A DNA stretch of 64,000 bases from Asterochloris sp. CNOR1 (taxonomy: Eukaryota; Chlorophyta; Trebouxiophyceae; Trebouxiales; Trebouxiaceae): positions 124,001 to 188,000 of the forward strand of contig OZ017747.1 of the NCBI GenBank assembly GCA_963969365.1, in the 5' to 3' direction. A program made the translations under genes and the position numbers. The notes under the pieces are model-generated. The model worked only from the letters and a program-made list of their open reading frames with translations, was not told where the DNA came from and made no database searches. Of this stretch, positions 1 through 64,000 are shown piece by piece (positions within the stretch are counted from its first letter, which is position 1; each line of letters starts with the position of its first letter).

Positions 1-2065
1 CACGTGCTGTACTAGACAACTCTGTACCAGTGCCGTGCCCAGGTCGCCTGTGGCGGGTGCTGACCTGAAGGGCGGCCTGAGGGATGGGGTGCAGCGGCTG
101 CACCTCCACCCGCACTCCTGGGGCAGCCTCCAGCGCCCGCAGACAGGCGTCCTGCTGGCGCGTGGGCAGCTGCCACTCCTTCCGCGTGGGCAGCCAGGTG
201 CACCCTGGCACGCTGCAGGAGGGAAGTGGACAGCTCAGATGCAGGCAGTGGGCAGCCGGGGCACCCTGGGAACGCTGCAGATCGCAGGTGGACAGCTCTG
301 ATGCAGGCAGTGGGCGGCCCGGGTGCTAGGACACGCTGCAGCGGGGAAGTGGACAGCTCAGATGCAGGCAGTGCGCACGCAGCTGCACCCTGGACCGCTG
401 CAGCAGGGAAGTGGACAGCCCTGATGCAGAAAGTGCGCACGCAGCTGCACCCTGGACCGCTGCAGCCTGCAAGTGCAGAGCTTAGATGCAGACAGAGCTC
501 CTGAAGGCACTGTGTACAGTCTGCGGTGCAAGACGACGTCAGGGCGCCCAGCCTGGCGCAGCAGGCTGGAGACCACACCATGCCAATCCCAGCTGTGCTT
601 GCCGACCAACGCCCCACCAGCAGGACCCTTGTTTGGTGTTTCTGCCAGCACTGCAGCCCAGAGTGCCAAGCTGGCAGGTGCTGCAGCTCGCTCTGTCGAG
701 CTCCCCAACATGCTCAGAGGAACAAGCAGACAGCCAGAGACTCAGCCACCCCACTCACCTCCTCAGCGCTGCAATGAGCCGCTCGTGGTAGGCCACACGC
801 AGCAAAAGGTACCCCTCAGGCCCCAGCTGGAACTCTGCACGCATCAGGGGGCCCTGGCCAGGCACGGGTCTCTGCTGCCCTTGCACAGGTGGCCCCTGCT
901 GCTGCCGTGAGCCCTGCGCGGGGCCTGCATTCTCCTGTTGCCGCTGGGGCTGCTGCGTCCCAGCGATGGTGCGAGCAGCACCAGGCTGCTGCCCGTGCTG
1001 GGGCCTGGCCGCTGCAGGCCCTGGCTGCTGGCGAGCGGCGCCTGGGGGAGGCGCAGATGCGGTCATGCTGAACGCTGCAAAGGGCGCGCTGCTGGCGGAG
1101 CTGCTGCCTCCCGAAGCGCCTCTGAGGCAGCCCTGACCTGCCTGAGGCTGCTGGGCACTGGCAAGGCTGGGAACGCTGCACCTTGCGCTCTGCGTCAGCT
1201 CAGCTACCTGACAGGCATGCGTCTGGTGCTGGCCCTGTGCAGGCTGCTGCATGGCACCACTGCCCCACCCTGCCTGGCCAGCAGTGGGGCCCTGGCCCAC
1301 CTGCTGTAGCGGACAGCCTCGCTGCTGCTGGTGTGTGCCGGCACGCGCATGCCGCTGATCCAACAGCTGGTGCTCCGCCTGAGGCGCTGCGCTGTGCACC
1401 CTGGTGTATGGGTTTTCAGGCACTGTCTGATGGGCTGGCTGTGCTCCTGAGTGAGGCAGCTGCTGCGGGCCAGCAGCAGCAGCAGCTGCCAAAGGCTCAT
1501 ACTGTGCATCCTGGCAGCGCAGGGGCCCAAGTGCAGACTGGCAGGCAGAGGACTGCCGTCCCGAGTGCAGAGCAGCATGCTGTGCTCGCGCATGCTGCTG
1601 AGGCTGTTGTGCGCCTGGCAACTGCCGGCTGCCGGCGGCCGCTGCGATAGGTGCTGTGTGGGTTGCAGCTCCCTTGCAGTGTGGCACTGAGGGAGTTGCC
1701 GGGCTGCCAGGCCAGAGCCGCTGCGGCAGCAGGCTTGCTGCGCTGTGCCCGCTGGAGGCAAGGCTGTGCCCACTGCCTGTCCCTGCCTGCAGCAGCTCTC
1801 TGGAAGTTGCAGGGATCCCTGCAGCATGCCATGCAGGCAGTGTTGTGCCAAAGCATACCTTGGGCTTGGTGAAGAGGTCTCGCACCCTCTGCCTGTTGAC
1901 GCCAGTGGCTCTCTTCTGCAGCAGTCCAGGCAGTTGGGTACAGGCTGCCCAACATCTAGAACAAATCAGCAGTGATACCATTGGGGAGCCAGCTGGTCGC
2001 GCAGCGATCCGTGCAGCCAGTGCTTGGGCCACAAAGGCATCAATATCCACCTCCAGATCATCCAT
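1..2065 (-). CDS. SMARCAL1/CHR18-type annealing helicase, N-terminal part with HARP domain (partial, runs off left edge)
   Basis: Two exons are visible. Exon 1 (2065-759) opens MDDLEVDIDAFV and is mostly a long Gln/Ala/Pro-rich, probably disordered stretch. It ends in AEFQLGPEGYLLLRVAYHE and a GTGAGT donor. Exon 2 (212-65) keeps frame and contains KEWQLPTRQQDACLRALEA and VRVEVQPLHPIPQAAL. Joined, they match the HARP domain (aromatic-X-aliphatic YH..LI..L, then W.lP, then VxVxPL.P...A) of plant and animal SMARCAL1 proteins. In that family HARP precedes a SNF2 ATPase that reanneals RPA-coated DNA and remodels stalled forks in the nucleus. The ATPase would lie left of base 1 and is not seen. The intron between the exons holds a 62-bp repeat array carrying extra copies of the exon 2 acceptor. 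The start is the first Met of the open frame; the next gene diverges about 165-220 bp away. HARP is well supported; the family name rests on it alone. Confidence 0.68.
211..490. repeat. Five-copy 61-62 bp tandem array in the HARP intron, with decoy splice acceptors
   Basis: A CGCTGCAG landmark recurs at 211, 273, 334, 396 and 458, giving periods of 61-62 bp. Units share a core reading GTGGACAGCTCAGATGCAGG. On the minus strand each unit ends CTGCAGCG followed by a decayed copy of the first bases of HARP exon 2, whose true acceptor is the copy nearest 212. The array therefore repeats the 3' splice site and exon start rather than anonymous sequence. It also explains the long repetitive antisense reading frame across this stretch. 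Confidence 0.9.
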
Positions 2066-2230: not shown

Positions 2231-3367
2231 TTGGGACTGTGTGCCTACTTAGAGCTTTTCAATCTCACCATAGGTAAGCAGGCTAGAATGAAGTCTGAGC
2301 CCGGCAGTGGCAAGAGGCAAGAGCGCAACTTTGAGATTGTTGTCCACCACATCACCACCAATGAAGACCAGCTGCCTCAGGTCTCGCGGCAGAGCATGGC
2401 GGCTCTGAAGGATGTCTCTGGACACAACATCAAGAAGTACTCAGGCACCCTTCACCACAAGTCAGGCAACCACCATGTACATTTCCTTGTGATGTCTGAG
2501 CCTCCTAAGACCAAGAGCGCTGTCAAAGCCAGTATTGCTGCCTCCATGGCACTCATCTTTGGCACACAAATTGACTCTGTGGAAGGGAAGTTGTTCAATG
2601 AGTTGAAAGCAGATGCTGGACCAGCTCACGGCCTGAAGGGGCTTGGCGACTACAGGTCGCTGTACGTGAACAATAACGACCATGAGAATCACCGCCCAAT
2701 GCATCCTGAGCACAGGACAGTGGAGTTCATGTGTGGTGGAGAATGGAAAATTTCACATGGAGGTGCCAGGAATAGTGCTAGCACGTCCAGCGCTGGACGA
2801 CAAGGGCCAGTGCAAGTGGCAATAGCGGCCATCAGGGCAGGGACTCCAGAGTTGCAGTGCAAAAACTATGAGGATTTCCAGCGTCTGCTGGAAGCCGCTG
2901 CGAAGAGTGTGGGTTGCACCATATATACCTTGCCGAAGGTACCAGGCTTCTTTAGTACTGTGCCCAAGCGTGTGGAGGGTGACTTCGTCCCCAACCCTGC
3001 CTATAATGAGGAGGAGTTCAAGGCCCTACCCAAACAGGAGCAAACCAGCAAGCGGAAGCGCACCATGAAGTATATGCAGGGGCCAGACGGGCTAAGCCTA
3101 AGGGAGGAGGTGGTGGTCAAGCACAACTTTCTGGAGGAACACCCTCCTGATTTTTACAGATTCAGGCTCCTTGAGCCAATCAGAAAGTTGCAGTCTAACA
3201 GGATGCTCACAGTTCCCAAGTTGAAGCAGCTCTATGAGGAGGCATTCATTGATCTGTTCAAGGACTACCCACCTCCTGGATGGACGTCTGGTCGTGCGCC
3301 AGCAAGGGCATGTGTCAGTTACAATCTGCCAGCAGCAGTCATTGCTGATGTGATGAAGGCCAGATGA
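2231..3367 (+). CDS. Unknown single-exon protein with a possible HUH (His-hydrophobic-His) motif
   Basis: A 378-codon open frame without introns, unusual here. Met at 2288 (MKSEPGSGKRQERNFE) is a better start than 2231, because 2231-2287 reads like leader and contains a donor-like GTAAGC. Near the N-terminus, FEIVVHHITTNED is followed about 45 residues later by SGNHHVHFLVMSEPP. A beta-strand plus H-V-H arrangement of this kind is seen in HUH endonucleases (rolling-circle Reps, relaxases, Helitron Rep). A candidate downstream tyrosine region is GDYRSLYVNNND. No helicase domain and no Helitron double-tyrosine motif are visible. The C-terminal half is basic (KRKRTMKYM) and ends YNLPAAVIADVMKAR. 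TGTAA lies about 95 bp past the stop, and a perfect hairpin lies 500 bp downstream. I do not recognise the family. The HUH reading is inference from a short motif; an ordinary lineage-specific protein is equally possible. Confidence 0.5.
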   Translation: MGLCAYLELFNLTIGKQARMKSEPGSGKRQERNFEIVVHHITTNEDQLPQVSRQSMAALKDVSGHNIKKYSGTLHHKSGNHHVHFLVMSEPPKTKSAVKASIAASMALIFGTQIDSVEGKLFNELKADAGPAHGLKGLGDYRSLYVNNNDHENHRPMHPEHRTVEFMCGGEWKISHGGARNSASTSSAGRQGPVQVAIAAIRAGTPELQCKNYEDFQRLLEAAAKSVGCTIYTLPKVPGFFSTVPKRVEGDFVPNPAYNEEEFKALPKQEQTSKRKRTMKYMQGPDGLSLREEVVVKHNFLEEHPPDFYRFRLLEPIRKLQSNRMLTVPKLKQLYEEAFIDLFKDYPPPGWTSGRAPARACVSYNLPAAVIADVMKAR

Positions 3368-3790: not shown

Positions 3791-3871
3791 CCCTGTGTGA
3801 GATCTGATTTTGTGGAGTGAGATCTCACTGTCTGAGTGAACTGTTACACCGCTCAGTAAAGACATGCACCG

Positions 3872-3909: not shown

Positions 3910-4100
3910 ATTTTTACACATCTAAATCACATTTAAATGTGACCTGTGCAGGTAAATGGCAATAGGAATTGTCAATGCAGATCAGCAAACAATCAAAGGC
4001 TTGCTCAGCTGCTCTGCTTACGCTTGCCAAGCAGCTTGGAGTCATTGCTGTACCTGCTGCATAGCTGCTGCAGTGAGCTGACTGTCCTGGTGGCAGGAAC

Positions 4101-17013: not shown

Positions 17014-17098
17014 AGCTGCTGTTTCTTCAGCAGACATTCAGATGACTCCAGCAGAATTAGTTTTGGCTTTATTAGCAGAATTGCAGGATGTCGGCATG

Positions 17099-22609: not shown

Positions 22610-25600
22610 ATGGGAAACCAATACAGCTCTCATCGCCAGTTGGAGGCAGAGCATCTGGCAGAGCTCCCCAATGTGGTCCTCAAACAGGTGCAGCTCTGAC
22701 ACAAGCAGGCATTCAGTACAGACTTGTGCCTTGCACTAGGCCTCGCCTGGAGCACAACATCTGCAACCATTGGCTGTGTGCTCAGTGCGACACTCATCCT
22801 CTAATGGCTCCACAGGACAGAAGTGCAAGCTATACTGCCAAGTCACATCATTCACGCTGCGCCAGCTGAGGGCCTTCTGTCACAGCGCGCCAGCTCATTG
22901 AGCACAGCACTGGTCAGGCACACAGCAAGTCCCCTTCCCCCTGCAGGTACTGGGCAAAGGACGCTTCTTGAAGACGGTCCTGTGCGTGCACGACACAGGC
23001 GGCCTGGTAGTGGTCAAGGTGTTTTACAAGAGGGAAGATGTCCCAGACCTACGGCCCTATGCCCAGCAGCTGCTGGTCATCAGGTGGGCGCCACCAGCAT
23101 GTGATGTCCGCTGTGACAGGGGAGCTGGCGCAGGCATCACACGCAAGAAGCCGGGGTCGCGCCGTGCAGCCTGCAGGATGCGCCGTGCCGCCTGCTGAGA
23201 GCCTGGGGGCAATCCACTGCCCTGTCCCTGCCTGCAGGCGGCTGCTGGGCATAAAAACCTGGTAGCCCCTGCTTGAATGCCTCACTGCTCAAACCCTCAT
23301 AAACCCTCATGCCTGCTAAAGCCACACCGGTCAATTCCCACTTCCCCAGGAACTTGCCTGCAGGAGGCAGCTGGCAGACATTCCCATGAGCCACGTGTGG
23401 CCCCACCAAGAGTGGCTGGATGCCGATCGCGCCTGCTTCATGTCGCGCCAGTACATCCACTCCAGCCTGTTTCAGCGCCTGAGCACGCGGCCTTTCATGA
23501 CACAGGCTGAGAAGGTAGGCAGCAACGTATCTGGAGGCAGTGCCCGTTGTGGTCATTGGCAGCTTCCTTTCTGTGATGCCGTGGGTTTGGGATGGCCGGC
23601 ATCAGCGTCTCATAGGTGGGGCCTTTCAGACTTCACTGCATGCTTGTCCAGCCTGCTCCAATGCCTCAGGCGTGGCACTTCCAGACGCAGATTGTATGCA
23701 TTTGGCAGCACAGTGATGCCAGCAACTTTCTGCTGCCTGGCAGCCAAATCTTCTTGCAGACACCCCTGGCTCAGCATGTATGTGTTCCCCACAGTATTGC
23801 TGACATGTCTAGTGCGTGTGTGAGCAGTGCCCGTGTGGTGCCCGGTAGCCAGAACCTCATGCAGGCAGCTGCAGCCCAGCAGCATGTCAACAATGTTATG
23901 TGCTTTATCCCACATGCTAGCTTGTCCAGCTCAGGAAGCTCTTGGACGCCACTGTTATGGTTGTGCATCACCTGTCAGCCTTGCTGGGCCAGCTGTGGCA
24001 CTGCCAAGGAAAGGACAGGCTGATGCAGGACACTCTGGCCCTTGCAAACTTGGATGTAACCTCCAAGCATGCTCCTGCCTCACCCGCTGCAGACATAAGT
24101 CTGCATGTGTGATCTGCCTTCGCAGTCATCTTTCCATGCTCCAGCCTTGACTCTGCACTTGCACCGTCCCCTGCAGCACTGGATCACGTTCCAGCTGCTA
24201 CACGCTGTGGCCCAATGCCACGAGCGCAGCGTGTGCCATGGCGACATCAAGACTGAGAACGTGCTGGTCACCTCCTGGAACTGGGTCTTTCTCACCGACT
24301 TCGCTTCCTACAAGCCAGTCAGGGTGCCGGCTGACCACATGGTGAGCCTTCTTCTTGTCTGGCTGCAATGTGGTAGCTGAATATCTTGGGCACATTGCAA
24401 ATCTCTTCCACAAGCCAGTATGGGGGCCGGCCTGTGACAACTTTGGGTGCTGTGAGTTTGTCTCATACTTGCCTGTCAAGATGCCCGCTGACCACACGGT
24501 GAGCTTGTGTGCTTCGTTACATAGGCCCCGGCACCAAGTTTGCCTCCTGCAAAGCTGTCATGATACTTTTGATGCTGCTGGTTTGCTATGAGGTAGATGA
24601 TTGAGGGCCTCCGCTGCAGCTGCAAGATCATATACAATTGTCAGCGTGCCTGAGCTTTGCCTTTAGATTCTGCAGGACAGTGCCTCCTTTCAGATTCGAG
24701 AACACCAATTGCACCTTCCACAAGCCTGTCAGGGCTCTGATCAACTGCGCGATTAGCCTGATGTGGGCAATGTATCTGACTCAGCTTGCTGTGGCAGCTG
24801 CCAAATTTTCAGTGCGTTCTGCTGTGTAGTTCCTTTGCCTGGCTGCCTGCTTGGACCTCTCGAGGCACTTCAGATCTGATTGCAGCGCTCGGCCTCTGCA
24901 CACTCGTCCAAGGCACTTCAAAATTTGCTTGTGACCATGAGCACAACATGCTACAACCAATGTACTAAGCGTCAGTAACTTGTGCTTGCTGCAAGGCTTT
25001 GCCCTGCTGAAACACCATTTCCACACAGGCACGGCCACTTGAACCTGTCGCCACTTAGGCTTGCTGAGGTGACGCGATTTTGGTGCAGAATGACTTCAGT
25101 TACTTCTTCAATCCCAATGGGCGCGAACAGTGCTACATCAGCCCCGAGCGCTTTTACGTAAGCTCAGACGCCCAGGGAATCTGGCGCCAGCAGGCAGCGC
25201 TCCAGCCCAGCATGGTGGGGACTGCCAGCTCAAAGACATCACAACATGCCTTGCACTGCATGCACCATCTTGGTGCCACGTTAGGCAGTCTGGCAGTTTG
25301 ACTCGTGTCATGTCATCAAAGACAATGCATCAGCCCTGCCTGGAAGGCACCAGTTGTTCAAAGAGCCATCCTTACCACTGAGTGTGTACTGGGTAACATG
25401 AGCTGTTGGACATCGCTTTTTGCTGACCTGAAGAGAACGGGCGCTTTGCATTGCACCTGTCATTGCCATGCCACGCCAGGCATTCTAGTACCAATGCCCT
25501 GAGCTGCATGAGCAGGCAGCCCTGCAGCTCAGTCTGGTGGGCACCTGTCGTTCAGACAGTGGCTTGTCATCAATCTGGCTGCACTTGTCATCAATGGGTC

Positions 25601-42491: not shown

Positions 42492-45400
42492 ATGATCATC
42501 AGCAAGTCAAGGCAGACCAAACGCCAGGCGGAGCAGGTGTCTCCCGCAATCATGCGCAGATCAGCAGCATGTGGCTCATCTCACTTCTTCAATGCACCTG
42601 CAGACCCCTGCAGACAAGACTAAGCGTAGTGAGCCGAACCTTGAGGATTTCTTGCAGCGGCGTGACTTTTCAGGTATGGCCATCGACCGCTCCTGTGGCA
42701 CCTGCAGGCTGCATGCAAGATGTGCTCACTCAGATGCTGCTGCAGGGGCCATCACTTGGCTGCACTTCAAGCGCCATGGCGCAGCAAAGGACCCCAGAAT
42801 GCAGGAGTGGCTGGCCTACTCTCACTACCACTTTGCCGAGCATGACAAGGTCTGCTTGCCAGCTTCCAGGCTCAGTGGGTGCTTGCTGTCATCAGTGCAG
42901 ACCATTGCAGCACATGCTGCTGTTGCTTCAGCTTGCACATCAGAGGGGTGGGAGAGCGTGCTTCCAAGCGCAGCCTGCATATGCAATCCCCAGACGCATT
43001 TGCAGCTGTGACCATCCTTTGCAGTACATGCTGTAGGGCCTCCTGACCTTCCAACAAGTGGGGGCCTGTGAGCTGCTTGTCATTAAAGTCCAATAGCATT
43101 GCCAGGTACCATTCATCATGACGAAACTTGTGCGTGCAGGCGCTGGCCATCTACAAGCAGCTGCTGGCTGAGGAAGACCCCGACCCTGTATACTACACCT
43201 ATGCTGCAGCCTGCCTCTACTACATGGGCCTGTACAGCGAGGCAGAAAACATGGCGCTGCAGGTGAGCTGCCTCTGAAACTTCTGTCGCGTGTCAGCCTG
43301 GGGCTGGGACAGATGTGGCTTGCAGGTGGGTTGCCTCTAGACCTTATGCCGCTTTCTATGACTTGAGCTGTGCGCTGGACTTGAGCTGCACAGAGGGCAG
43401 GGCACATCAGCTGGGATGCCGACTGTCAGCCTGAGCAGTGCAGAGGCATCTCACCTGCTCTGATTGAGCCCCGGTGCTGCCTGATGCCAGAGTGCAGCTC
43501 AAAGTGAAATTGGCACAAGGTCCAGTACAGACGCCAGGGCACAGCAGGTGGCATGCCTCTGAAGTCACTGTTGCCAAATCCTTATTGCACAGCCTGCCTG
43601 TCCATGCAGGGCCCCAGGTGCGCTTTGCAGACGCGCATCCTCTTCCACTGCGCCCACCAGATGGGCGACGAGGCCAAGCTGATGCAGCACCACCAGCAGC
43701 TGTCTGAGAGCACGGAGGACCAGCTGTCCTTGGCCTCCATCCACTACCTGCGCGGGCACTACCAGGTGGGGTCACCATGCTTGTATACGCGGGTGATGCT
43801 TTGCCTGTTGGCTGCTTGTTCTTCACACAGAACTGCTGGCATTGGCAGCCAAGCACCACAACAGGTGGGGCCCCCATGCTTTCGTGAATGGCTGACGCTT
43901 TGCCTGTTGACTGCTCAAACTTTTCACAGAGTTGCTGGCATTAGCGGCCATGCACTACCTGCAGTGGCACTATAGGGCACCAGATGATGCTGATTGCCAG
44001 TCTCACGGACAGATCCCGTGCCATTGGTGCAGGTGGCCACAGATGCGTACAGGAAGCTAAGCCACGGCAAGCCTATTAACCTGGCCCTTCTCTTCATGGA
44101 TGCCATGGCAGAAAGTCCGCAGATAGACCCACCAGATCTTCGCTGCAGGGGGTGTAGTTGTGTACTAGTACCCTCTGCTACTACACCGCAGGTCCTTTCC
44201 CCATCCTATGGCTGCTAAGCACTGCAAAATCAAATGTTCTTGTCTTTTGCAGGAGGCTACAGACGTGTACAAGCGCCTTCTGCTGGAGCACAGAGAGTTC
44301 CTGGCCCTGAATGTCTACGTGGCGCTGTGCTACTGCAAGCTGGACTACTATGATGTTAGCCTGGAGATCCTGGCAGTCTACTTACAGCAACACCTGGACA
44401 GCGCTGTCGCAGTCAACCTGAAGGCCTGCAACCTGTTCAAGCTTTACACGGGCAAGGCTGCCGAGGCAGAGCTCAAGGTGAGGTACCCCCCTCATCTCAA
44501 CAAGTCTGCATCAGGGGCTGTTACACGTCTGGCGACAACACTGAGAACTCTTGCACAACTGTATGTGAAACAGGGTGAGAAGTTGTCCAATGCAGTTCAG
44601 GCAGCTTTACCTAGAGCGCCAATGGGAAAAATTTTAGTGTCTAATCCTTTCTGCGCAGCAGCTCAATCATCAGTCTGGCTTTCAAAGCAGAGGCTGGATG
44701 CAGGGGCTGTAATGGCAAGAAGTTACCACTCAGCACGCTGACACAGGAGCCTGGTGGTTCTGCCTGCAGGAGCTGGAGAGAGGCAGGGGTTCAAGGTTCA
44801 TGGTGACCTATGATTTTGGTGCCATTGCCTGTAGGGGCTGGAGAGAGGCAGGATTTCATACTGAGGCCGCTGATCCAGAAGTCTCATGTCATTGTCTGCA
44901 GGGCCTGGAGAGGCAGGGGGTCAACATCAGCGACAATGCTCTGGTGCGCCACAACCTGGTGGTCTTCAGGAATGGGGACAGCGCTATGCAGGTCAGCAAG
45001 GGGTTCCACCTGCCTATGTGAATCTTTGGCATGCAAGTGGGCAGGTTCATCACTGAGCAGTCACCTTCCTGGCCTCAGCAGCGTCAATGAGCAGCAGGAA
45101 ACAGGTGCTTCAGCAGACACAGGCGTCAGGTAGGCCACGTAGGGCCAGCTGCTGAGGTGAGCAGCTGCAACAGGGTCAGCAGGCAGTGCCTGTGAGCTGC
45201 GCTTTTGTCGCATTCTCCCCTGCACACCTTGCCACAGCTGCAGCCCAGTATTGCAGCACGTGCAGCACGTGCCAAGTCCGCCTGCCCAGCATGGCGCCCT
45301 TCCAGTTGCAGATGCTGATGAGTGCACCATGTGACACTGCCCCACGCTCCAATCCAGTAGAGTGCCCTGCCTGCTGCAGGTGTTGCCCGGAGGCATGCTC

Positions 45401-48400
45401 AAGTATGCTCAACAACACATCCCATCTCAACAAAGCACCCTGTCTGCTGCAGGTGTTGCCCCCACTGGTGGGCGTCTGCCCAGAGGCGCGCCTGAACATG
45501 GCCATCTACCACCTGCGGCGAGGGGAGGCAGAGCAGGCCTTCAAGGTTGTGAAGGACTTGGACCCGGTGGCACCGCCAGAGTACATCCTCAAAGGTGAGT
45601 CAGGGTACCTCCAGGGCGCGGTCTGCTGAGGATTTCTCAAAGCAGGTGGCTCCACCAAGCGTGACACGCGCACATTCCAGGACACAGCGTGCAGGTGCAA
45701 AGAGAGGAACTCTGAAAGCTGGTGGAAAGGGCATGCACCCTGGGTAACTCCAGGATGCAGTGTTTCAGAGGTTTGCCTGGGACTATTCGAGGATGGATGG
45801 CCTTTGACGGTCCCAAAGTAAGGGTTGAGAGGCAGGTAGGGCATCGCAGCACACAGTGTTGCCGTCACAAAGACTGAATGGGCAGCAGCGCCCCATGTGC
45901 TGCCGGACTGCAGGGTGGTCAAAAGCACTGCCACCTGCACCACGCTGGCTGCTGCATCTCTGAATTGCACCCAGAGATCGTTTCACGGTGGTGGTGTCTG
46001 CATTGCATTGCCTCTGTCTTTGTGTGTTGCCAGGTGCCCACCAGCAGCCCTCTCCTGGCGCTGCTGCCCTGGCATACACAACTGTAGGGCAGCACTCAGT
46101 CTGCTTCTCCATCCTGCACAACCTACCAGCCCCACACTCCTGCCACCTTCTGCAGGCGTGGTGTACGCTGCGGTGGGGCAGCAGCAGCAGTCCCAGGAGT
46201 ACCTGAAGATTGCGCAGCAGTGCTTCCAGCTAGTGGGCTCCTCCGCCACTGAGTGTGACACCATTCCAGGTAGGTCTTACTCAAAAAGCAGCTGCAGCTC
46301 TGCAGATGAAGCCAACATTCTCAGAGCCCAAGGACCAATGCTCCCACGGCATGGCCTTGGACTTCTGAACTGTGGACGTCCTGAGAGTGTCTTGGGTGTC
46401 ATACGTGTCGAGAAGGAGATCGTCAAGGTTCAGTTGCCTGTGGTGGCGTTATTGCTCCATGGCTCTAGGTTGTGCCTGATGGCGTCGCTTGCAGCCATGG
46501 GCTGTGAGAGGAGACCCCTCTGCATGTGTCCACAGCCGTCTCGTGCTGCCCTGATGAGGGGTGATGTGGAATTCAAACAGTGCGGGGGCAGCAGGCTGAT
46601 TTCCTCAGTGTCAGGCAGCACAGCCATGCAGCAGCGCTGCGCTGAGGAGGAAGCTGATGTCCTGGCAGCTCCAGGCAGTACACCAGCGACGCAATGCAGC
46701 GTTCAGGGCCAAGCATTGCCAGCCGAGTCAGGTCAGGGTGCAAAGGCAAACCCCAACGGGTGCAAGTCTGTGGAGCCATGCAGCGGGCAGCAGTGAGCAG
46801 GGCCCCTGACTCACACCTTGTGTCCAGTTGCTGGCCATGGACAGGCCGGGACACCACATGCAGCGCTGTGCAGTGCAGCAGCGTCCCCACATACTGCAGT
46901 TGCTTGCCTTCTAGTGATCCCATGGGACACAAGCCTCAGCGAGGCCAGCAAGCAGCGGCTGCCTTGCCTGCATGGCGTCAGAGCATGGCTGCTGCACAGT
47001 GCATGCCTCTCAGCTCAGAGCCTGTGAAGTGCCCCTGCAGGGCGCCAGTGCATGGCCTGCTGCTTCCACCTGCTGCGGCAGTGGGAGGACGTCCTGGTCT
47101 ACCTCTCCAGCATCCGGTCCTACCTGGCAGAGGACGACGACTTCAACTGGAACTTTGGCATCGCCTCAGCTGCGGGGGAGCAGTGGGGGGATGCAGAGGA
47201 GGGCCTGCTGGCTGTGCGGAACGAGGCCTACTGTGGGGAGCACTGCTACGCGATGTGGCTGGCCAAGACGCACATCATGCGGGGTGGGGTGCTGCTTGTG
47301 AGGTGGCCACATGGCCAAGCAAGCTCAGACTTGCGGGGTCCATGCGGAGCTTGGTTGTATGCACTGCCAAGTGATGTGCCTGGCCAAGATGCACATAATG
47401 CACTTTACATTCTTGCAAAGTGGGGTGGCTGGCTGCTGTAACTGTTCAACGCGGCTTCTGAGTCCAGACCTGGAGCCTGCTGGTCAGCAGTGCCATGCAA
47501 AGTGGCTTTGCAAAGTTGCACACACTGCTGGGTGGAAGTGCTTGTTCAGCGCGGTTGTCCAAGCAGATCCTCATGCAGGATGGCGTGACATTTGCTTGGA
47601 GCCTTTTGGTTGGCACACTCATGCGCTCTGGCAGGACAAGATGCACACCATGCAGAGTGTGCCAGTGGTACAAAGGATGCGTGCAGGGAAGCACTGCCAT
47701 GCCAGGTGACTGGCTAGGCCGCACATCATGCAGAGTACCTGGTTTGGTGGTGGGGAAGGCAGCTGGGAATGGGAACGCTGCTGGCTGAGATTGTAAGGAC
47801 GAGCACAATACCCACACTGTGAGGTGTGTGCTGGCAGATCAGATCGGATCAGCCAGGCTTGCGGAGTGACTGCGACCACCAGGAGTACAGGAGCAGACTC
47901 CCCATGGTGTGAGGCACAATGCAATGTGTGCTGCTGCAGGGAAGCCAAGGGCTGCGTGGGAGCTGTATCTGAGGCAGGGCATAAGCGACAAGTCCCTCCT
48001 CCTGCTGCAGCTCATCGCCAACCAGTGCTATCAGCAGGTGGGTCAAGACATGTTGCATAATGCTGACATGTCCTCTCACAAGAGGCATGAAGCAGCTGTG
48101 TCCCCACCAGCCCTTTAGATTTGGCTGACAGGGTGATGCCCAGGCCGATAATAATTGGGGTAGTCAGAGCAGTGCTGCTGCTGGCGGCTGCAGCCCTGCC
48201 TTACTGTAAGGAAGGTCAAAACTGTCTCTGCAGATGCACTGTCGGAGGTGCTGCCTGCAGGGCCAGTTCTTGTATGCCGCCAAAGCTTTTGACGTGCTGG
48301 AAAGGCTTGATGGCTCCCCAGAGCACTGGGAGGGCAAGCAGGGCGCCTGTGTGGGGGTCCTCCAAATGGTGGCAGCCGGCAAGGAGACGGGTGAAACGCT

Positions 48401-48796
48401 CAGGTCGGCGGACTGGCATGCCAGTGCATGCACCACATGGTCTTGGACCATGATTCTGCCGGTGGTGATTGTTATTTACGAGGCGCACAGAGGCTTGAGC
48501 TGATCATGCCAGGCAGCAGTGGCGTGATACCAGGCATGCCTTGAGACACAGCCTGCAGCAGCTGCACAGACAAATTAGCCTGTCAAGCTGACAGGCTATG
48601 CAGCAGCTGCCTGTGCTCACCCATGACTGTCGACACCTGAGTGTGAAGTAGTCAGCGAATCACTGAGGGATCTCATAACCACCTTCCTGCATGCAGGGAA
48701 GTCCTGACGCTGCTTCAAAATTCATCTCAGGCCAATGCTGACATCATTGTACGGGTCATCAGGAGGTTTGCAGCAGAGAATAGGATAGCCCTCTGA
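42492..48796 (+). CDS. IFT56: IFT56 (TTC26/DYF-13), intraflagellar transport complex B TPR protein (complete, 13 exons)
   Basis: Exons: 42492-42536, 42604-42673, 42746-42849, 43140-43262, 43610-43765, 44253-44477, 44902-44991, 45453-45594, 46156-46269, 47041-47283, 47940-48037, 48261-48403, 48697-48796. All have GT-AG borders, and phases join into 550 codons plus stop, close to the roughly 550-residue size of animal IFT56. Diagnostic runs include [74 protein letters not shown] and [19 protein letters not shown], ending ENRIAL. The protein is a TPR superhelix. In known organisms IFT56 is an IFT-B subunit needed for full ciliary length and for import of certain motility proteins. Its intact frame argues that this lineage keeps, or recently kept, a cilium. 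Several introns carry exon-edge echoes. It ends tail-to-tail with the PPR gene, 377 bp away. Confidence 0.95.
43766..43975 (+). repeat. Two tandem donor-side copies after IFT56 exon 5
   Basis: GTGGGGTCACCATGCTT (43766) recurs as GTGGGGCCCCCATGCTT at 43865, followed in both by GCTTTGCCTGTTG, a CTG rich block and CACAGA.TTGCTGGCATT. After the second copy, CACTACCTGCAGTGGCACTA (about 43953) echoes the exon end CACTACCTGCGCGGGCACTA. The period is 99 bp. Confidence 0.88.
44033..44111 (+). repeat. Decayed extra copy of IFT56 exon 6 start
   Basis: After an acceptor-like GTGCAG it reads [20 protein letters not shown] and FMDAMA. This parallels the true exon at 44253, [20 protein letters not shown] then VYVALC. 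The reading frame is still open over about 26 codons even though the nucleotide copy has drifted, so its use as an alternative exon should not be excluded. Confidence 0.75.
44770..44930 (+). repeat. Three copies of the IFT56 exon 7 acceptor and start
   Basis: CTGCAGGAGCTGGAGAGAGG (exon-like start 44770), CTGTAGGGGCTGGAGAGAGG (44835) and the true CTGCAGGGCCTGGAGAGGCA (44902) give periods of 65 and 67 bp. The true exon lacks the GA duplication seen in both echoes. Confidence 0.88.
45380..45403 (+). repeat. Echo of IFT56 exon 8 acceptor and start
   Basis: CTGCTGCAGGTGTTGCCCGG at 45371 matches the true CTGCTGCAGGTGTTGCCCCC at 45444, 73 bp downstream. This decoy acceptor lies in good context. Confidence 0.85.
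47366..47735 (+). repeat. Four decayed copies of the IFT56 exon 10 end
   Basis: The exon ends ATGTGGCTGGCCAAGACGCA, CATCATGCGGG at 47283. Related stretches occur at 47366-47400 (ATGTGCCTGGCCAAGATGCA), 47490-47528 (AAGTGGCTTTGCAAAGTTGC), 47620-47660 (CTCTGGCAGGACAAGATGCA) and 47693-47735 (TGACTGGCTAGGCCGCACAT). Spacing is roughly 75-130 bp and decay is greater than in the other arrays. Confidence 0.72.
48576..48598. other. Perfect 10-bp stem, 3-nt loop in the last IFT56 intron
   Basis: TAGCCTGTCA (48576-48585) pairs with TGACAGGCTA (48589-48598) around AGC. It may form in the transcript and bring the intron ends together; no further evidence. Confidence 0.6.
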
Positions 48797-55793: not shown

Positions 55794-55826
55794 AAGGTAG
55801 CTGTCTCGATGCGCAGGTCATCTCTG

Positions 55827-55894
55827 ACCTGGAGGCCCATGACAGTGTTACAGCCCACAGGATGCGGCTGTAACACTGTCATGGTCCTCCAGGT
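55827..55894. other. 29-bp near-perfect hairpin just after the kinase stop
   Basis: ACCTGGAGGCCCATGACAGT and GTTACAGCC (55827-55855) pair with GGCTGTAACACTGTCATGGT and CCTCCAGGT (55866-55894), with one mismatch and a 10-nt loop. It begins 34 bp past the stop. Each arm contains TGTAA in one orientation, so it may mark transcript ends, or it may be a tiny inverted-repeat insertion. Confidence 0.85.
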
Positions 55895-56450
55895 GAGAGG
55901 ATATAGCTTCATGAATTCTACATGATTGCAACGAATCAGCAAATCTTCTATACTGTTCACTTAGACATTGGGGGCACAGAGGAGTAGTAGCCTTGTGGTG
56001 CCTCTACCATGAATACCTCAGCTATGACCACTTGCAAGGATGCGCCCAAAGTGCGGTCCTGGTAGCTGTTAGCAATTGTCTTCACATGAATAGGGAGCAG
56101 CAACCTGGCACCAAACATCTCTGGCGGCCTTCAGACTGGCTGTTGAGGATGGCCTCAGATCTAGGCGCCTTCTGCTCCTGTCTGCCTCGTCCAGACAGCA
56201 TCACCCTGCCATCCCCAGGCCACTACTACAGCACATCTTTGAGCTGGCAGAACTGCTTTTGTGAGTGCTGCACTGTTCCCTGTGAAGCAGTTACACACCT
56301 GCAACAGCGCGCCCTTGCCTTTTCTGTGACACTTTTGCAGACTGTAACATTGCAATGCCTGACCTGAAGTGTCAGACATGACAACAATGCTGCCCTGTGT
56401 ACTTTGTTAACTATGCGATTCCAATGCAATTGGGCCCCTGCTGACATACA
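55895..56450. other. Intergenic stretch between convergent genes
   Basis: Somewhat more AT-rich than its surroundings. No gene was recognised. The convergent genes on either side end at 55793 and 56451. Confidence 0.5.
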
Positions 56451-59400
56451 TCAAGACCGTGTGCACTGTAAACAGTTGTCAATGACTTGTTTCATTTCTG
56501 GCAGAGGCGCAGCGATTGACAAGTTGACTTGCGACAAAGCCTCCAGCAGCCCAGAGCCATATGCCTCTGTGATGTGATGGCATGCCAGTAATGCTGTGTC
56601 CCACAGTGCGCAAGCTGAGGCCTGCATTGAGTGGCTATGCTGCAGAGATCCTGCAGCAGAAGCCAGCATATGTGATGCCATGAGCTACCAGTTACTGAGG
56701 AGGGCTCCAAGAAACGCAAGGAAGGTTGTGACGTGCTGCTGATCACAAAACCTCAGCTTCACTTGTGCACATTTTGAGCAATCACTCACCTTCAGATGAG
56801 CTCGTTGCTCTCCGTGACTCCTCCTCCTGCCACAAAAGCTCTTTGTACTTCTGTACCAGCACGAGAGTGGCCACCACGCTGAGAGAGACTGTGGGGAGGT
56901 CAGTGATGCTGCCCGGATATATGCCTCCAGGCAACATGAGGGACGTCTTGGCCCGGCCCTCCCTCTTGACTGACACTGCCAGAGCTGTGAGCGCCCGCAG
57001 TGCCAGGCAGGCCTGCTGGCAGTGGCTGTGCAGCTGCCAGGCTGTCAGGTCCTGCTGGCTGGGGGCATAGTGCACTGCCTGCAGGGCAGATGCAATATGT
57101 TTCTCCCCTGCCTGCTCCAGGTCGAAAAGACGATGTAAGCAACCCGGTGACAAACATCATGCTGGGCACTGCTGCTTGCCAGGACTGCAAGCTCCAGAAT
57201 GGGTGCCCTGCAACCGCTCCTGTTGACAGCCAGCTCACCTGTGAGCCAGCTGGGCTTTGCTTGTGAAGTCTCTCACATGCACAAGACGTTGGAGATTCAC
57301 CTTCCCACAGCCAGGCTCACCGCATATACCCTCTGGCGCACATTCCACTGCGGGGCATGGGGCTGCTGAGGCGCTGCAGCAGATTGAGCCTGCGCCCGAC
57401 TCAGCACTGCAGCTGCGGAGGCTGCCACGGTCTGCAGCTGCAGGTCAGCAAGAGCCCAAGTGAGAGTGGTGGGCGACCTCACAGTCTGCCTCCTGTGAGA
57501 GCGGGGATGGCGGCTTAGCATCCTCCAGGACCACACCGACACTGTTGTCATGTCCAACCTCTTGCTGTCCCCTTGCGCTGGCAGGCCCACAGGAGTAGCT
57601 GCAGAACTCTTTGTTCCAGCCAGGGAGTGACAAATCTAAAGTTATGACCGCCGGGCCCGAAAAATGTGCACTGCTCATGCGTACATCCTGCGGCTCACCT
57701 CATCGAGGCAGGCTGTGCTGGCGATCTGCCACGATGCATACCCACTGCGGCTGTCCAGGAGTGCCTCCCTGCGGACTGCAGCCGGCCCTCTGGCCTCGGA
57801 CACTTCAGCCAGGTCCCGGAAGGCAGCTGCGTGCAGCAGGGGTGCCTGCAGTCGAGCAGCACCTCAACGCTGAGGCTGATGAAGAGCCTGTGCGCTGAGT
57901 CAAAGGCAGCTGCGTGCTGCAGAGGTGCCTGCAGTGCTGGAACTGGTGCATGACTGTGCTCGATGCGAAGGCAGCTGCATGCAGTCAGGGCGCCTGCAGG
58001 CAAGCAGCACTGAGGCGCTGAGGCTCACGAATAGCTCTGCTCGATCTACAGGCGGCTGCCTGCAGCAGAGGCGCCTGCAGGCAAGCAGCAAACTGATGCT
58101 GAGGCTCATGGACGACTGGGCATAGTGCGAAGGGCTCGCTGGTGGGGTACACGCCTCAACACAGAGTCTGGCAGATTGGGATGAACGCTTTTGCCAGCCC
58201 TGAGCAGTATGTCAGCAGGCACCGCTTCACACATACTCCAGCAAGCGCTCAAAAGTCAACCATCAGAAGGCAGGTGGTGCAAGGCAGTGAGCACATCGGG
58301 CTGATGCCGCACCCTGAGACCCCTCAGGGGCTGCCAGCAGTGCTTGCAAGCCTCCACTGTTGCGGAATTTGGACACGTCAGACCATGCAACGCTGAAGAC
58401 TGCCTGGCAGGATGCCGGGCACTATTGAGTGCTGTCCAGCTAAGGCAGGGCCTGGCAAGCATTTAGTGTGATTGAGAGCCCCCACAGCATTGTCGCACCT
58501 TAGCATCCTGCAGGGCTGCCAGCATGTTGCTGTTGTCGTCGCTCCCGCCTTCAGCAAACCTGAGACGCTCGCTCCACACCAGGTTGACCAGGTGGGTCGC
58601 TGCGGGGGCCGTTGTCACAGGTCAGCAACAGCCCTGGCCAAGCCTTGCTGTGGTCACACAAGAGGCTTTCAGCAGCTCCCAGCAGACAATCGCTCAAGGA
58701 AGAAGCTAGGACGGGGCCGAGCACCAAAAGGGGCCACACAAACCCGTCAACCCACAGCTCACCAAGTGTGAATGCCAGGCTCAGCGCAAAGGCCACCAGC
58801 GCCTGCTGCCGGAGGCTGGGCAGAAAGGCCGGCCGCCTGCCAAACGTCAGACGTACTGCAATCCCTGTGCAGGCCTCCAGTGCCAGCCCAGCAGCAGCAT
58901 TCTCAGCAGCCTTGCGCAGCACTGCAGGCATGCATCACATGGGGTCGCAGCAGCACAATTTGTGAGGGCAAGTGCACCCGTCAGAGACAGCTGCACTGAC
59001 CCTGGAAGACCTAGATGTCCCTTTGGGAGAGCTGTGCTGGCACTCGAGAACAGCTCCCTTTGTAGTTTGCGACAGCAACGCTGGCACTTGAGACCAGCTG
59101 CTGCAGCCTGCAGCTGCTATAGATGCAGCACAGCAACTTCTCTGCCAGCAGTGGCAAGGCGATGTGTACACACAGAGTAATTAACAGCAGGGCAGCTGCC
59201 TCAGCTTGCATTGCCACAGGTTCCAGATGTTACAGCTCCTCAGCACCTGGCTACAAGTGCCCTGCAGCAAGATCAGTTGCCCTGCTGTTTTGTGCGTGTG
59301 CCAAAGCTGCTGCATGGTCATAGCCAGCTTCCCCCTCACATGTTTGTTTGCTGCAATGCCAAGGGTGGGTGCAACGAGACAGAGAGGCAGTGATGCCTCA

Positions 59401-61030
59401 GCCTACAGCCGCCACAAAAATGCACATGTAGCCCCCAAATTTCACATTGCAGACCAGCTGCAGTAGCAAAGGACATTTGCAGCAATGGTTATGGAGCACC
59501 TGCCTCAGCCTAGCAGCCACCAAATATTCTCTTTCCCAGGCCCACCTCAGATCCAGCTGCAGATGTAATGCAAACATTCAGACTTCAAGACCAACAGACA
59601 GGTACACAGCTGCCTTAGCCTGCACAACTGCTGCCTCTGAGCGGCCCCCAATCCCCATGCCAGCTGCCATGCGCAAGACTGGTGTGCACACTGGCAGCGC
59701 CTGCTTGACTTACTCTCAGGGACCTCACTCCTAAGCCTAAAAAAGCGTGGCCTGTGCACGATGGGGAACTGCAGCACATCATCTCCCCTGCAGAACACAG
59801 CATTGAAAGTAAGCAGTGACAGCAAAATGTGCACACGATGGTGCCTCCTGGAAAGGGCTGCATCACAGCTCTGCCCCTGCTGGCACATCTGCCACCACAA
59901 GACTCTCAAGGAAAGTCTGCTGGCAGTCGGCACAAGTTGCCTTAACTGCTTCAGTACTGCGTAGCTGTGCTGCAGACACATGGCATGCATATCAGCAAAA
60001 CAAAGGCTGGGTTCACACACCTGGCAATCGTCAGCAGCCAGTGCGCCATGCCAATACAGACGCCCAGGACAGCGCTGCGCCGCCACCCTGCATTACAGAC
60101 AGGTGGCTGCCGATCAAGGTCCGTCTTGACCAGGCTCAGAAGGCTTCCAGAGAGCCTGTGTTGGAACAGGGCTTATTGGCAGACCAGAAAGAATGAGCAT
60201 CTGCACCGGTGAGTGGCAGCATCCCAGTACTGGCCCCTGCCTGGCTATAGCACGACAGGGCAGAGGCCACCATAGAAAAAGCAGGCTGACCTAGAGGGTG
60301 CGGCAGGGCTGCAGTCACAGCCCAGGCTGACAAGGCTCCTGCGATGGCCGCTGCAGCTGCATACAGCGCAGCCCTGCCAGCACTGCGGCGAGTGGACAGG
60401 CGGCTCCTGAGCCTGACCACTGAGCTGCTGCTGAGAAGCATGGCCATGCGCTGGCGTGCCAGGGAGACCAAGTGGGGCAGGCTCCTCATGAACGGCACCG
60501 GGCTGCACAGGCGGGTGAGCCAGATGCCGAGCAGGGCTGCTGGCCTGCAGCAGGATCACTGTGTCAGCGTAGCTGCCTCGGCAGGCAGCAGCGGGATGTG
60601 ACAGCCACTGCCTGGGAAGCTGGCAGCCGTGTTGTCGCAGGATGCATGTCAAGTCTGCCATGCAGTGCCAGCACCAAACAGCACGGAGATCAATTGACTG
60701 GATCAATGAAGCTCACCTGATCAGCCAATTAGGCATCCTAACTCTGAAAGGCTCAGGCTCAGTGGCTAACAGGGCCGCCAGGTGAGCCAGCTGCACCAAT
60801 ACTGCTAGCAAAGCAAGTCCAAGAGAACCTCCCCAGACCTTCAGGGACAGAAGATTTCGCAGGCTGGACCAGGGATGCAACAGGCTCCCTCTGCCAGCTG
60901 CCAGACATGGAACAACGGCCAATGTGCCTGTGATGAGCAGCCACAACGCAGCACCAGCCAGTCGCCATGCCAGTACTTGCTGCTTGAAGGCCTGATAAGG
61001 ATCTGCAGCCATCTGTATCCACTCTGGCAA
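56451..61030 (-). CDS. Multi-pass membrane protein, probable nucleoporin NDC1
   Basis: Exon 1 (61030-60717) starts MPEWIQMAADPYQ and has two hydrophobic segments (LAGAALWLLITGTLAVVPCL; GGSLGLALLAVLVQLAHLAA). Exon 2 (about 60551-60291) has LLGIWLTRLCSPVPF and a third (ALYAAAAAIAGALSAWAVTA). Exon 3 (about 60085-60022) reads SAVLGVCIGMAHWLLTIA. Further exons lie at about 59.8 kb, 58.93-58.75 kb, 58.61-58.50 kb (THLVNLVWSERLRFAEG) and 57.78-57.70 kb, where LLDSRSGYASWQIASTACL fits the dl..R..if...g..W..i...c motif of NDC1. The C-terminal region has ALRALTALAVSVKREGRAKT (57.0 kb) and a final exon WDTALLACHHITEAYGSGLL to the stop at 56451. NDC1 anchors the nuclear pore complex in the pore membrane. 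Topology and motif order agree, but no single signature is decisive. Divergent from the GT77-like gene, 240 bp away. Confidence 0.48.
57818..58103. repeat. Four-copy tandem array (64-82 bp units) in the NDC1-like gene
   Basis: GGCAGCTGCGTGCAGCAGGG, GGCAGCTGCGTGCTGCAGAG, GGCAGCTGCATGCAGTCAGG and GGCGGCTGCCTGCAGCAGAG start successive units at about 57822, 57904, 57968 and 58049. Each is followed by a GTGCCTGCAG or GCGCCTGCAG site and GCTGAGGCT. The left-most unit abuts the predicted exon at 57.78 kb, so these are probably minus-strand acceptor-side echoes. Confidence 0.82.
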
Positions 61031-61270
61031 GTCAACATTCGACTTCTCTTCTAACTGATTGCAGTAGCACTAGCTTCGGGATCTGTGCTGACCTGCTCAC
61101 ATCCTAAGAATCAGATGCCACTGCAACTTTACACCCCAGATCATTTTAGGTCGCCTTGGCGCCATCTCTTGCAGCATCGATTGGGGCAGCCATAGTATCA
61201 GCTTTGCAGCCAGCCTATGATTCTCGGCATGTATCGTTGTCCCTGACAATCATTGGAGGGTTCACCATCC

Positions 61271-64000
61271 ATGAAGAGGTCCCCAGTGGTCTTGGGAGCA
61301 TTTCTCCTCTTGTTTGCTGTGTCAGGCATGGTCCTGATGCGCCAGGTGAGCCATCCCGATGTGTGTCTCCATACGATATAGAGCAGCTACTACATTATGG
61401 CCAGTGCATATCGTGCACCCCGAGGTGACAGGACTGTGACCTGCAGCGTGCACGCAAAGACGGTGGCCTTTGAGAGTCAGCACGTCACCTTCAATGTGTC
61501 TGCCCCTGCAGCAAAGCTACCTCTCAGCAGCAGCAGGGACTGCTGCTGGCCTGAATGCCGATCGCACAGAAAATAGCACGCTCTGGCACCAAGTGTGGCA
61601 CCTCAGCCAGAACGCGTCCAGCGCAGAGCACTTCTTTGACAGCCTCAGCAGGAGCGGCATCCTGCTGCAGCGGCCAGGCCAGGCTGTCAGAGCTGGTGCC
61701 CTCCCGGCACAGGCAGCAGCAGCTGATGCTACTAGGGCCAGCCCCAGCACTCACCAGGCAGTGGACACCACACCCCTGTCAAGTGGGACACATAGTGGTG
61801 CAACAGGTGAGGGCTGCGATGTCGCCTGCAAGACAAGTACACAGCAACAAGGCCTCTGTCCTGTTGTTGCCACCAGCCATAGTGCATCAGCCGGATTACA
61901 GCCAACATGGCGTCAAAGCTATAGGTTTGGTTGACACCGATGGAGGCATTAGAAAAGACCAATGCATGCCAACCTGGCTGCTCCTCCTGGTGATGGAGAG
62001 GCCAGTGTTGAGCCAATCCCTGCAGGTGCTCAGCAGAGCACTGGCCCACCTCAGGCAAGGACTGATGAGCCCACTGTGCACACGCAACCCACTGCCACGA
62101 CAGCCGGGAGCGACCAGCCCCTGGCCGACCCTGCAGACCCTGCTGTACCCCAAGCTGCCAAGGTCACAGCCGAGGCAGCCCAGCCAGGGACAATTGGCAG
62201 CCTTCCTCCAGGTGGGCTGCTTGGCAGCTAATGACTGATGATGGTTCTGAGCCCTGATCCTCCAATGCTGGCCACAAGCATGCCTGCTCTACATGGATGC
62301 CTCTGTCCCCTGCCAGCGAGTCTGGCATGACCGTCCTGCCCAACAGGCTGGAGAGCAAATGCTGCTGCAGGCCAGCAGGTGTCAGCATCTGGCCATCTCC
62401 TTCCGCACCTCTCCAAGGGCTTGGCCCAGCAGCACAGCCGCGAGGACTTGCTGTTTGTGACCTGGACCAACCAGCACTTTGTGCCCTTTGCCGCCAACTG
62501 GGCGCACTATGCTCGCGCAGCAGGCATCAATAATTTTCTCGTGGGTGAGCTGCTGCCTTGTGCCTGCAGGTGTCTTTCTGGCCTCACTTGTTGCTGGGAG
62601 TAGATGGCAGCAGTGAAGCCACTTCCAGGCCCATGCCTCACAGCAGAGGCCTGCCAGTGAGCTGCCTGCCCCCTGCAACTGAACTTAAGGCTGCATCAGC
62701 TTCAGCTGCTGTTTGGCAAGTCTGGGTGCAGAGGGCTGTCAATGAGTGGCCTGCCAATGTTCAGACGGGTGGCTTCACAGGCGCACCCACTGCTGATGTG
62801 AGCTGCATCTGAGTTTCTGCTGCTGGGCACGCCATGCTCCAGCTGACATGCAAGCGGATGGGTGCACAGCTGGATGGCCTGTCAGAGGCTGTCAAGCTCT
62901 CACAGCAGCTGTGCAACAGAATTCTTTGCATTTAGAGTTAAGCCTCTGCTGCTGCATGCAGGTGCACTGGACGAGGCAGCAGGACAGCAACTGACCCAGC
63001 AGGGCATCCCCGCCTTTGCCATGTTCGACGTGCAGAGCGGCTCAGCTGGGCTGCCCACAGGTGTGCTGGGGCTGAATCAGTTGAGCATCTTATGAGGATG
63101 TCAGCAGCAGGCCTGGATACTGTGAACTCAGCGCCAAACCCTTTTGAAACACGCCCAGGCCTCCTCCTGCTGGTGCGCACGCTTGGCCCTAGCTGTGCCT
63201 CTCATGCAGCATGCCTATCCCAACTGTGGCACATGGTCCATGACCATGTGTGAATGCTGCCGCTGGCAGCTGATGACATGGCCTGTGGGGTTACACAGGC
63301 AAGGCTTGGCTGTAGACAGTACATCTCAGACTGCACCGTGTACAGCCAAGGGGCAGCATTGTTCCACGTTGCGTTTGGGGCGGAGGCACAGCCTGGCCCC
63401 ACTGCTCCCAAATGGCATGCACACTGCTCCCAGGCGTGCATCCATTTCTGCACCCAACCTGCAGGCAGACGATTGCTGCCATCTGACAGAAACCATGGAA
63501 TGCAGGCGACATGGTCTGGGGCGGAGGAGACTTCCACAAGATGGGGCGCCGAAAGGTGGCGCTGGCGCGGCAGCTGGCAGGCTTTGCGATGCAGGTGGTC
63601 ATCTGCGATGTGGACACGGTAGGTCGTTCTCAGGGTTTCTGCTCACGGCACCTTCCAGACGGCACCTGGGAGCCTCTGATGTTCAACTGGTCATGTGCAC
63701 TGCCGACATGCTGATGGGTCGCAGTTACATAGGTGTTTGCTGACGGCACCTACTTGGAGCCATCTAGCCCACTCTGAGCTGCAGGTGGTCATCTGCAACA
63801 TGTACATGGTGTTGCTGACATAACCTTCCTGAAAAGCCCTGGGTGCAGCTGGCCTAGACTGAGCTGCAGGTAAATATCTGACCATGGACACTTGATTGGG
63901 TGACTCAAAGGTTATGCTGGAAGAGGTTCACGCTGCCTGCGGCACCTGCAACCTTCTGTCTGTGGTCAGGGGCCATGTGCTGTTGGACTCGGGACTTGGT
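61271..64000 (+). CDS. GT77-like (RRA/XEG113-type) arabinosyl/xylosyltransferase, type II membrane protein (partial, runs off right edge)
   Basis: Exon 1 (61271-61345) gives MKRSPVVLGAFLLLFAVSGM and VLMRQ, a Golgi-type signal anchor. Exon 2 (61512-61806) and about 61.95-62.22 kb give a Ser/Thr/Pro-rich stem. The catalytic PF03407-type domain follows: EDLLFVTWTNQHFVPFAANW then GINNFLVG (to 62544), ALDEAAGQQLTQQGIPAFAM (62962-63060) and DMVWGGGDFHKMGRRKVALA then VVICDVDT (63506-63618). VVICDVDT is the metal-binding DxD motif, and F-HKMG is a family hallmark. Plant and algal relatives add arabinose or xylose to hydroxyproline-rich or other wall glycoproteins in the Golgi. The rest of the domain lies past base 64000. 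Stem exon borders are uncertain. The intron after 63618 carries echoes of the DxD exon. Confidence 0.82.
63684..63895 (+). repeat. Three echoes of the GT77-like DxD exon
   Basis: The exon contains GCAGGTGGTCATCTGCGATG (63591). Copies follow at 63684-63713 (CAACTGGTCATGTGCACTGC), 63781-63812 (GCAGGTGGTCATCTGCAACA, nearly unchanged, with TGTACATGGTG) and about 63866-63895 (GCAGGTAAATATCTGACCAT). Spacing is about 85-98 bp. Linking sequence (GGCACCT, TGCTGACGGCACCT) is also shared. Confidence 0.88.

Follow-up and report, generated by a model that had tools for sequence, protein, structure and literature searches.

The stretch analysed here (the window) is a piece of 64,000 nucleotides from the green alga Asterochloris sp. 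CNOR1 (contig OZ017747.1, C2:124001-188000), whose genome of 56.4 Mb comprises 21 contigs, 18 of them large, and contains intron-rich genes. The window has a GC content of 57% and carries predicted genes for VPS15 and IFT56, a SMARCAL1-like, an NDC1-like and a GT77-like gene, together with a region of ankyrin-repeat and possibly mobile-element genes. Our subject is a class of imperfect copies of exon edges that lie in the introns adjoining those exons. A reading of the sequence alone (the sequence-only reading) had placed such copies throughout positions 1-64000 and in all five of the named genes. They are indeed present at ten exon edges of VPS15, at four of IFT56 and, as one array, in the SMARCAL1-like gene, but the introns of at least 80 bp of the NDC1-like (56.3-60.7 kb) and GT77-like (61.3-63.8 kb) genes hold no edge copies above score 24, and the mobile/ankyrin region from about 2 to 21.6 kb is a different matter.

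Besides the window, the sample comprised 22 loci (L009-L030), each 10 kb long and taken at fixed coordinates from 18 contigs. Genes were predicted with a home-made gene finder, self-trained without labels on the window and on 18 loci of 10 kb (positions 500001-510000 of the respective contigs), with four further loci kept out of the training; it reached the consensus CAG/GTGAG for donors and CTGCAG/G for acceptors, the slash marking the junction. From 565 predicted introns, those shorter than 80 bp or containing N were removed, and for the remaining 482 the first and last 60 bases of each exon, with no intron bases, were aligned to that exon's own adjacent intron. Length-matched introns of other loci (1928) and the reverse-complemented own introns (482) served as controls. 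Counts for the window refer to introns of at least 80 bp outside the region of 3-21.6 kb (n=93). A strict set was also built, in which only exons of at least 60 bp with a good coding score were retained (371 of 653), the others being dropped and the introns merged to 285. One locus, L030, has a run of 200 N bases, which inflates the rows for the loci in an ungapped lag scan; these rows were not used for counts.

At a score of at least 30, a copy of the adjacent exon edge is found in 47 of the 482 introns, compared with 1 of the 1928 foreign introns and 3 of the 482 reverse-complemented ones. The window alone has edge copies in 15, 14 and 13 of its 93 introns at scores of at least 26, 28 and 30, respectively, versus 4 of 1928 length-matched foreign introns at 28, so the original observation is in essence sound for this stretch. 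Enrichment near the true junctions, which the sequence-only reading had named as the support to look for, is evident when exons of the strict set are divided into tiles by distance from the junction: matches were obtained for 48 of 570 tiles at 0-40 bp, for 7 of 536 at 40-80 bp and for 0 of 803 farther away. The copies thus sit at exon edges, with no indication of whole-exon copying among the tiles beyond 80 bp, and the fall-off is that expected for duplicated units near 100 bp. At least one edge copy is present in 13 of the 23 loci, the window counted, in keeping with the proposed recurrence in unrelated genes across the genome; in the four untrained loci 5 of 76 introns have one, all five in L029. 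A BLAST self-comparison of 40 kb of the window revealed nearby direct repeats (lags about 60-500 bp) far in excess of inverted repeats and dinucleotide shuffles, and the same excess was seen in 18 loci of 10 kb (180 kb). No direct repeats appeared by BLAST at lags of 30-60, but the ungapped lag scan did find some in the window and in the loci, so that the gap is at least partly an effect of the method.

Since the gene finder is home-made, false exons set inside intronic repeats might have created the signal. The finder did place false mini-exons in repeats (in IFT56, in RuvBL2, where there are two, and in Rpn11), and 97 of the 285 merged introns of the strict set hold a dropped mini-exon. The effect nevertheless persists with reliable exons only, where copies turn up in 48 of 285 merged introns while the foreign and reverse-complemented controls give 2 of 1425 and 1 of 285, respectively, and it holds in genes checked by homology, so we regard an artefact of this kind as highly improbable. 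RuvBL2, Rpn11, IFT144 and HSP70B were compared with solved homologs, and LACS was identified by a Pfam match only. In HSP70B, two edge copies accompany a gene model that required no correction. In several cases, most clearly in RuvBL2, peptides that the finder inserted and that are absent from the homologs coincide with edge copies. Across the six homology-supported genes, these five and IFT56 (54 introns kept), 16 of 18 repeat groups, in our own grouping, are at exon edges and two are intron-only, one of the latter falling below the 36 bits used elsewhere; two of the 16 edge groups (IFT56 43763 and 44761) were assigned by eye, the automatic exon overlap being small or on a false exon.

IFT56, with 12 introns kept, is the clearest test gene. 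As read by eye, the introns next to four of its exon edges hold copies of those edges, and for some edges there are copies in two or three places (Table 1). The first donor edge and its copies form a pair, 43763-43859 and 43862-43958, that is 75% identical at a lag of 99, with an additional copy at 43934-44001 (lag 211). Upstream of the exon starting at 44902, the segments 44761-44793 and 44826-44858 are 88% identical; the third copy at 44902 and the true exon were judged by eye against the Chlamydomonas structure 8bd7_E, and the kept mini-exon 44770-44802 is probably false. The copy of the next acceptor edge was partly taken as an exon by the gene finder (45380-45402), yielding a peptide that the homolog lacks. 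In VPS15, whose joined prediction aligns with chains of human PIK3R4 at E 2.3e-121, an additional local duplication touches no exon edge and is the same process without an edge.

Over 58 rows of edge matches the donor and acceptor sides are equally represented (29 and 29). The copies are direct and local, mostly at lags of 60-300 bp and in some cases up to several hundred bp, and in many rows alignment and lag are of nearly equal length, which corresponds to a minisatellite-like, head-to-tail arrangement that is clear in part of the rows only. The sequence-only reading had described periods that are constant within an array and range from 62 to 180 bp. Constancy applies to the array of five 62-bp units at 186-498 and to the spacing of about 65-67 at 44770-44902, but not to the lags of 121 and 451 in IFT56, which are not multiples, and the range is too narrow for lags of several hundred bp. 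Among the 41 copies that touch a junction, the match extends into the intron side with a score of at least 8 in 25 (15% in controls) and of at least 20 in 10 (0.1% in controls), which means that junction-spanning DNA, or unspliced sequence, was duplicated and that the exon alone was not the source. Introns with such copies are also longer (median 380 bp versus 223 bp), as would be anticipated from the role in intron growth that had been suggested for them.

The local origin of each array, as opposed to one dispersed family, is upheld by a genome-wide search with three units (43720-43970, 47230-47410 and 26330-26600), each of which was found in a single place, in a search that skips very common words. 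Membership in a dispersed repeat or introner family, which would place the same sequence in many unrelated introns, conflicts with both this result and the match rate of 1 in 1928 for foreign introns, and we give it almost no credence. Traces of intron gain, in which a duplicated exon segment containing AGGT provides the splice sites of a new intron, are an extremely improbable source as well. Direct tandem copies around introns and strong CAG/GT and CTGCAG/G sites speak for it, but its signature, a donor and an acceptor that share one register across two copies of an exon segment, was found in 0 of 282 introns, with a chance expectation of 0.2, and the copies hold pre-existing intron sequence; the link to this model drawn in the sequence-only reading is accordingly not sustained.

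The copies decay without codon constraint. When exon and copy are compared, mismatches fall nearly evenly on the codon positions (22/20/26%), and a frameshift results from 133 of 158 indels. CpG is retained in the copies at 0.59, compared with 0.79 for other sites, and exon-to-copy changes comprise 229 C>T and G>A versus 132 T>C and A>G, an asymmetry to which the GC-rich exons may add. Taken together, these patterns point to the intron copy as the decaying one. The CpG observed/expected ratio is 0.32 in introns and 0.49 in exons, and this depletion, along with the CpG-heavy decay of the copies, suggests cytosine methylation.

Such decay bears on whether the copies serve as alternative exons or as regulatory decoy splice sites under selection, possible alternative exons and decoy splice sites having been raised in the sequence-only reading. 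Of 21 donor copies 11 still have GT, and of 26 acceptor copies 19 still have AG; the gene finder used several copies as mini-exons (45380-45402 and the two in RuvBL2). Conserved alternative exons are unsupported, however, by the codon-position and frameshift pattern, and the aligned homologs lack the extra peptides; selection for either role is very unlikely. Decoy acceptors were considered separately and rejected: the acceptor motif (-5 to -1) is retained at 122 of 135 bases (0.90), and TGCAG inside exon parts is retained equally well (140 of 157, 0.89), so that the retention looks compositional.

We consider it likely that these introns grew by local tandem duplication, mostly in old events, and that the excess of copies at exon edges reflects survivorship. 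Under this scheme, short genic stretches, mostly of about 60-300 bp, would be tandemly duplicated at near-random places. Where a duplication spans an exon-intron junction and the exon-proximal splice site continues to be used, the mRNA would be unchanged and the spare copy would become intron, each such event lengthening the intron by one unit and presumably being fixed neutrally. The spare copy would then decay neutrally, fastest at CpG, with the exon copy kept by selection. Because the exon copy is held in this way, exon-intron pairs would diverge more slowly than pairs within introns and outlast them, and edge pairs would make up most of what stays recognisable today.

The alternative that deserves the most attention is that duplications are born or kept preferentially at junctions, for example through DNA damage linked to transcription or splicing, or thanks to the benefit of a spare splice site. 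Several results favour it, and these and others weigh against survivorship. The 60 independent repeat loci in gene bodies comprise 47 exon-intron, 9 intron-intron and 4 exon-exon cases, when rotated annotations give an expectation of 22 +/- 3.5, 26 and 12, respectively; at identities of at least 85% there are still 11 exon-intron loci versus 2 intron-only; and the proportion at edges in the homology-supported genes is the 16 of 18 given above. A neutral simulation with uniform ages leads one to expect a ratio of about 1:1 for exon-intron and intron-intron loci, and a constant birth rate predicts 50-57 intron-only loci and misfits the score distribution, so that the explanation requires mostly old events or the early loss of young copies. 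Edge copies are, moreover, clustered by locus beyond the effect of intron length (length-stratified shuffle, p 0.004), with 5 of 15 introns in L029 and 0 of 23 in L025 as examples, which random placement does not predict.

When search space is taken into account, repeat densities within introns and between exon and intron are about the same. The excess of direct over inverted repeats per million pairs is 2.63 within introns and 2.32 between exon and intron at threshold 20, and 1.11 and 0.64 at threshold 30, in a test that is not fully independent, as edge arrays contribute their intron parts and secondary copies to the intron-intron class. Age mixtures were fitted to the scores of 51 exon-edge loci at threshold 18 (hand-counted histogram 22, 16, 9, 4), using a simulation that assumes Jukes-Cantor change, places events uniformly, allows lags up to 270 and leaves CpG heterogeneity out. 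The fits need mostly old events, which would date the duplications to about 0.2-0.25 substitutions per site, and they put the expected number of intron-only loci at 10-21; the number observed is 16 at lags of at least 20, of which 9 are at lags of at least 60, one of these (44761) being assigned to an edge by homology. Raw counts favour edges, but densities are similar and the simulation with old events fits, reproducing the observed ratio. Retention of the donor GT in only 11 of 21 copies and the compositional look of acceptor retention also speak against this alternative. A strong birth bias at edges was dropped as the main cause after the density test and the age-structured simulation, and preferential birth or retention at junctions now appears unlikely. 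We likewise doubt the broader proposition that junctions are true hot spots for duplications of about 100 bp and that introns grow mainly by recopying their own junctions through a previously undescribed mechanism linked to transcription or splicing. The exon-edge preference is, in our reading, largely survivorship, edges not having been shown to be special sites of birth. The shortage of young pairs could stem from an old wave of duplication, from recombinational loss of young perfect repeats or from fast early decay at CpG.

Intron lengthening without transposon insertion is hard to document, in our view because the evidence decays. At an exon edge one of the two copies is preserved and can serve as a reference, which turns local duplication into a readable fossil record. 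Repeats that can be detected directly account for 6,103 of 116,905 intron bases; this figure is too low, as the repeats of L027-L030 were omitted. By extrapolation, the fitted models imply about 295-353 events, averaging 135 bp, in gene bodies whose introns total 117 kb, so that roughly a third of the intron DNA may have arisen in this manner. There is also a practical consequence, in that edge copies mislead gene finders into extra mini-exons, which matters for the annotation of such genomes.

In human genes, Zhuo and colleagues reportedly described in 2007 introns derived from tandem arrays, with splice sites lying within local tandem repeats; that work is said to concern the origin of introns, whereas the decayed edge copies here point to the growth of introns. 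That tandem duplication can give rise to introns and to duplicated exons is established (PMC4974935, PMC2891723, PMC6071210). Intron gain by tandem genomic duplication (Rogers; ATP2A1, Hellsten et al.; PMC4974935) shares with our case a local duplication inside a gene that splicing keeps out of the mRNA, but there an AGGT-containing exon segment gives rise to a new intron, and here an existing junction is copied and an existing intron grows. Another case is a potato RdRp gene (PMC4974935), where existing intron-exon structure with its splice signals was duplicated, although the outcome was a new intron and exon in a single case, compared with about a tenth of introns here; the same source also mentions an 83-bp duplication within an intron. 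Mutually exclusive exons formed by tandem exon duplication (PMC6071210) likewise involve exon sequence copied into the neighbouring intron, but they are whole and maintained, whereas the copies described here are edges, mostly under about 80 bp, that decay out of frame. Introners (PMC9860276) also affect many introns of one genome, as dispersed families, unlike the local and unique units tested here. Among the matches listed in our literature search there was no account of genome-wide exon-edge copies in introns, which is weak evidence of absence, most subscription papers lying outside that search; a genome in which roughly one intron in ten visibly contains copies of its own junctions appears to be undescribed in the literature searched.

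Table 1. Genes, exon-edge copies and related repeats in the window (positions within the 64,000 nucleotides)
Feature	Positions	Strand	Remarks
Array of five 62-bp units	186..498	-	outer copy extends into predicted exon edge of SMARCAL1-like gene
VPS15 gene (kinase, HEAT and WD40 parts)	22610..41120	+	predicted in three pieces
Copies of VPS15 donor edge 24301-24360	24402..24504	+	-
Weak copy of VPS15 donor edge 25189-25257	25511..25585	+	score 29; lag 322
Copy of VPS15 acceptor edge 26430-26509	26338..26421	+	lag 92; stretch 26330-26600 in a single place in the genome
Copy of VPS15 acceptor edge 26978-27162	26799..26971	+	lag ~180-191
Copy of VPS15 donor edge 27748-27789	27839..27880	+	lag 91
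Copy of VPS15 acceptor edge 28793-28853	28673..28736	+	lag ~120
Weak copy of VPS15 exon stretch 31399-31477	31689..31756	+	score 28; lag 290
Copy of 32386-32437, spanning predicted donor	32561..32612	+	92%; lag 175; exon model uncertain here
Copy of VPS15 acceptor edge 33798-33989	33531..33712	+	lag 267
Copy of VPS15 donor edge 36993-37105	37142..37248	+	lag ~149
Intron-only local duplication, no exon edge	37942..38374	+	lag 340
Copy of VPS15 acceptor edge 39995-40148	39844..40004	+	lag 151
IFT56 gene	42592..48796	+	predicted protein matches Chlamydomonas IFT56 8bd7_E nearly end to end, E 1.1e-193
IFT56 donor edge, source of two downstream copies	43723..43808	+	exon end 43765 plus intron start
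Decayed intronic copies (two) of donor edge 43765	43862..44001	+	stretch 43720-43970 in a single place in the genome
Two decayed copies of acceptor edge of exon starting 44902	44761..44858	+	spacing ~65 bp
Copy of acceptor edge of exon starting 45453	45365..45402	+	24 bp at 96%; lag 73
IFT56 donor-side exon edge, source	47235..47283	+	copied at 47361-47401 and 47686-47731
Copy of exon edge 47235-47283	47361..47401	+	85%; lag 121; stretch 47230-47410 in a single place in the genome
Second copy of exon edge 47235-47283	47686..47731	+	80%; lag 451
NDC1-like and GT77-like genes	56291..63823	.	no edge copy above score 24

Neither the SMARCAL1-like nor the NDC1-like prediction has a Pfam match that would support its name; the GT77-like prediction fits Nucleotid_trans (Pfam, E 1.3e-9). 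At 57819-58110, the NDC1-like gene holds a local repeat array that may or may not relate to an exon edge. The mobile/ankyrin region contains copies of ankyrin-repeat genes at 13230-20530 (Ank_4, E 6.4e-10 for one prediction), and a 425-base query from this interval has 68 matching places in the genome, the query itself counted; its tandem repeats of 81/162 bp resemble protein repeats more than exon-edge copies. Between the ankyrin genes are inverted copies, 15192-15544 and 17568-17929, that are 87% identical. A predicted multi-exon gene at 4005-9127, with no Pfam match, holds a 654-bp direct duplication (6556-7216 and 7210-7878, 86%), and a single-exon open reading frame at 2288-3367 is possibly a mobile-element gene, with a sub-threshold MobL relaxase match only (E 0.098). 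Finally, a 78-base imperfect palindrome at 55822-55899 is 86% identical to its own reverse complement.

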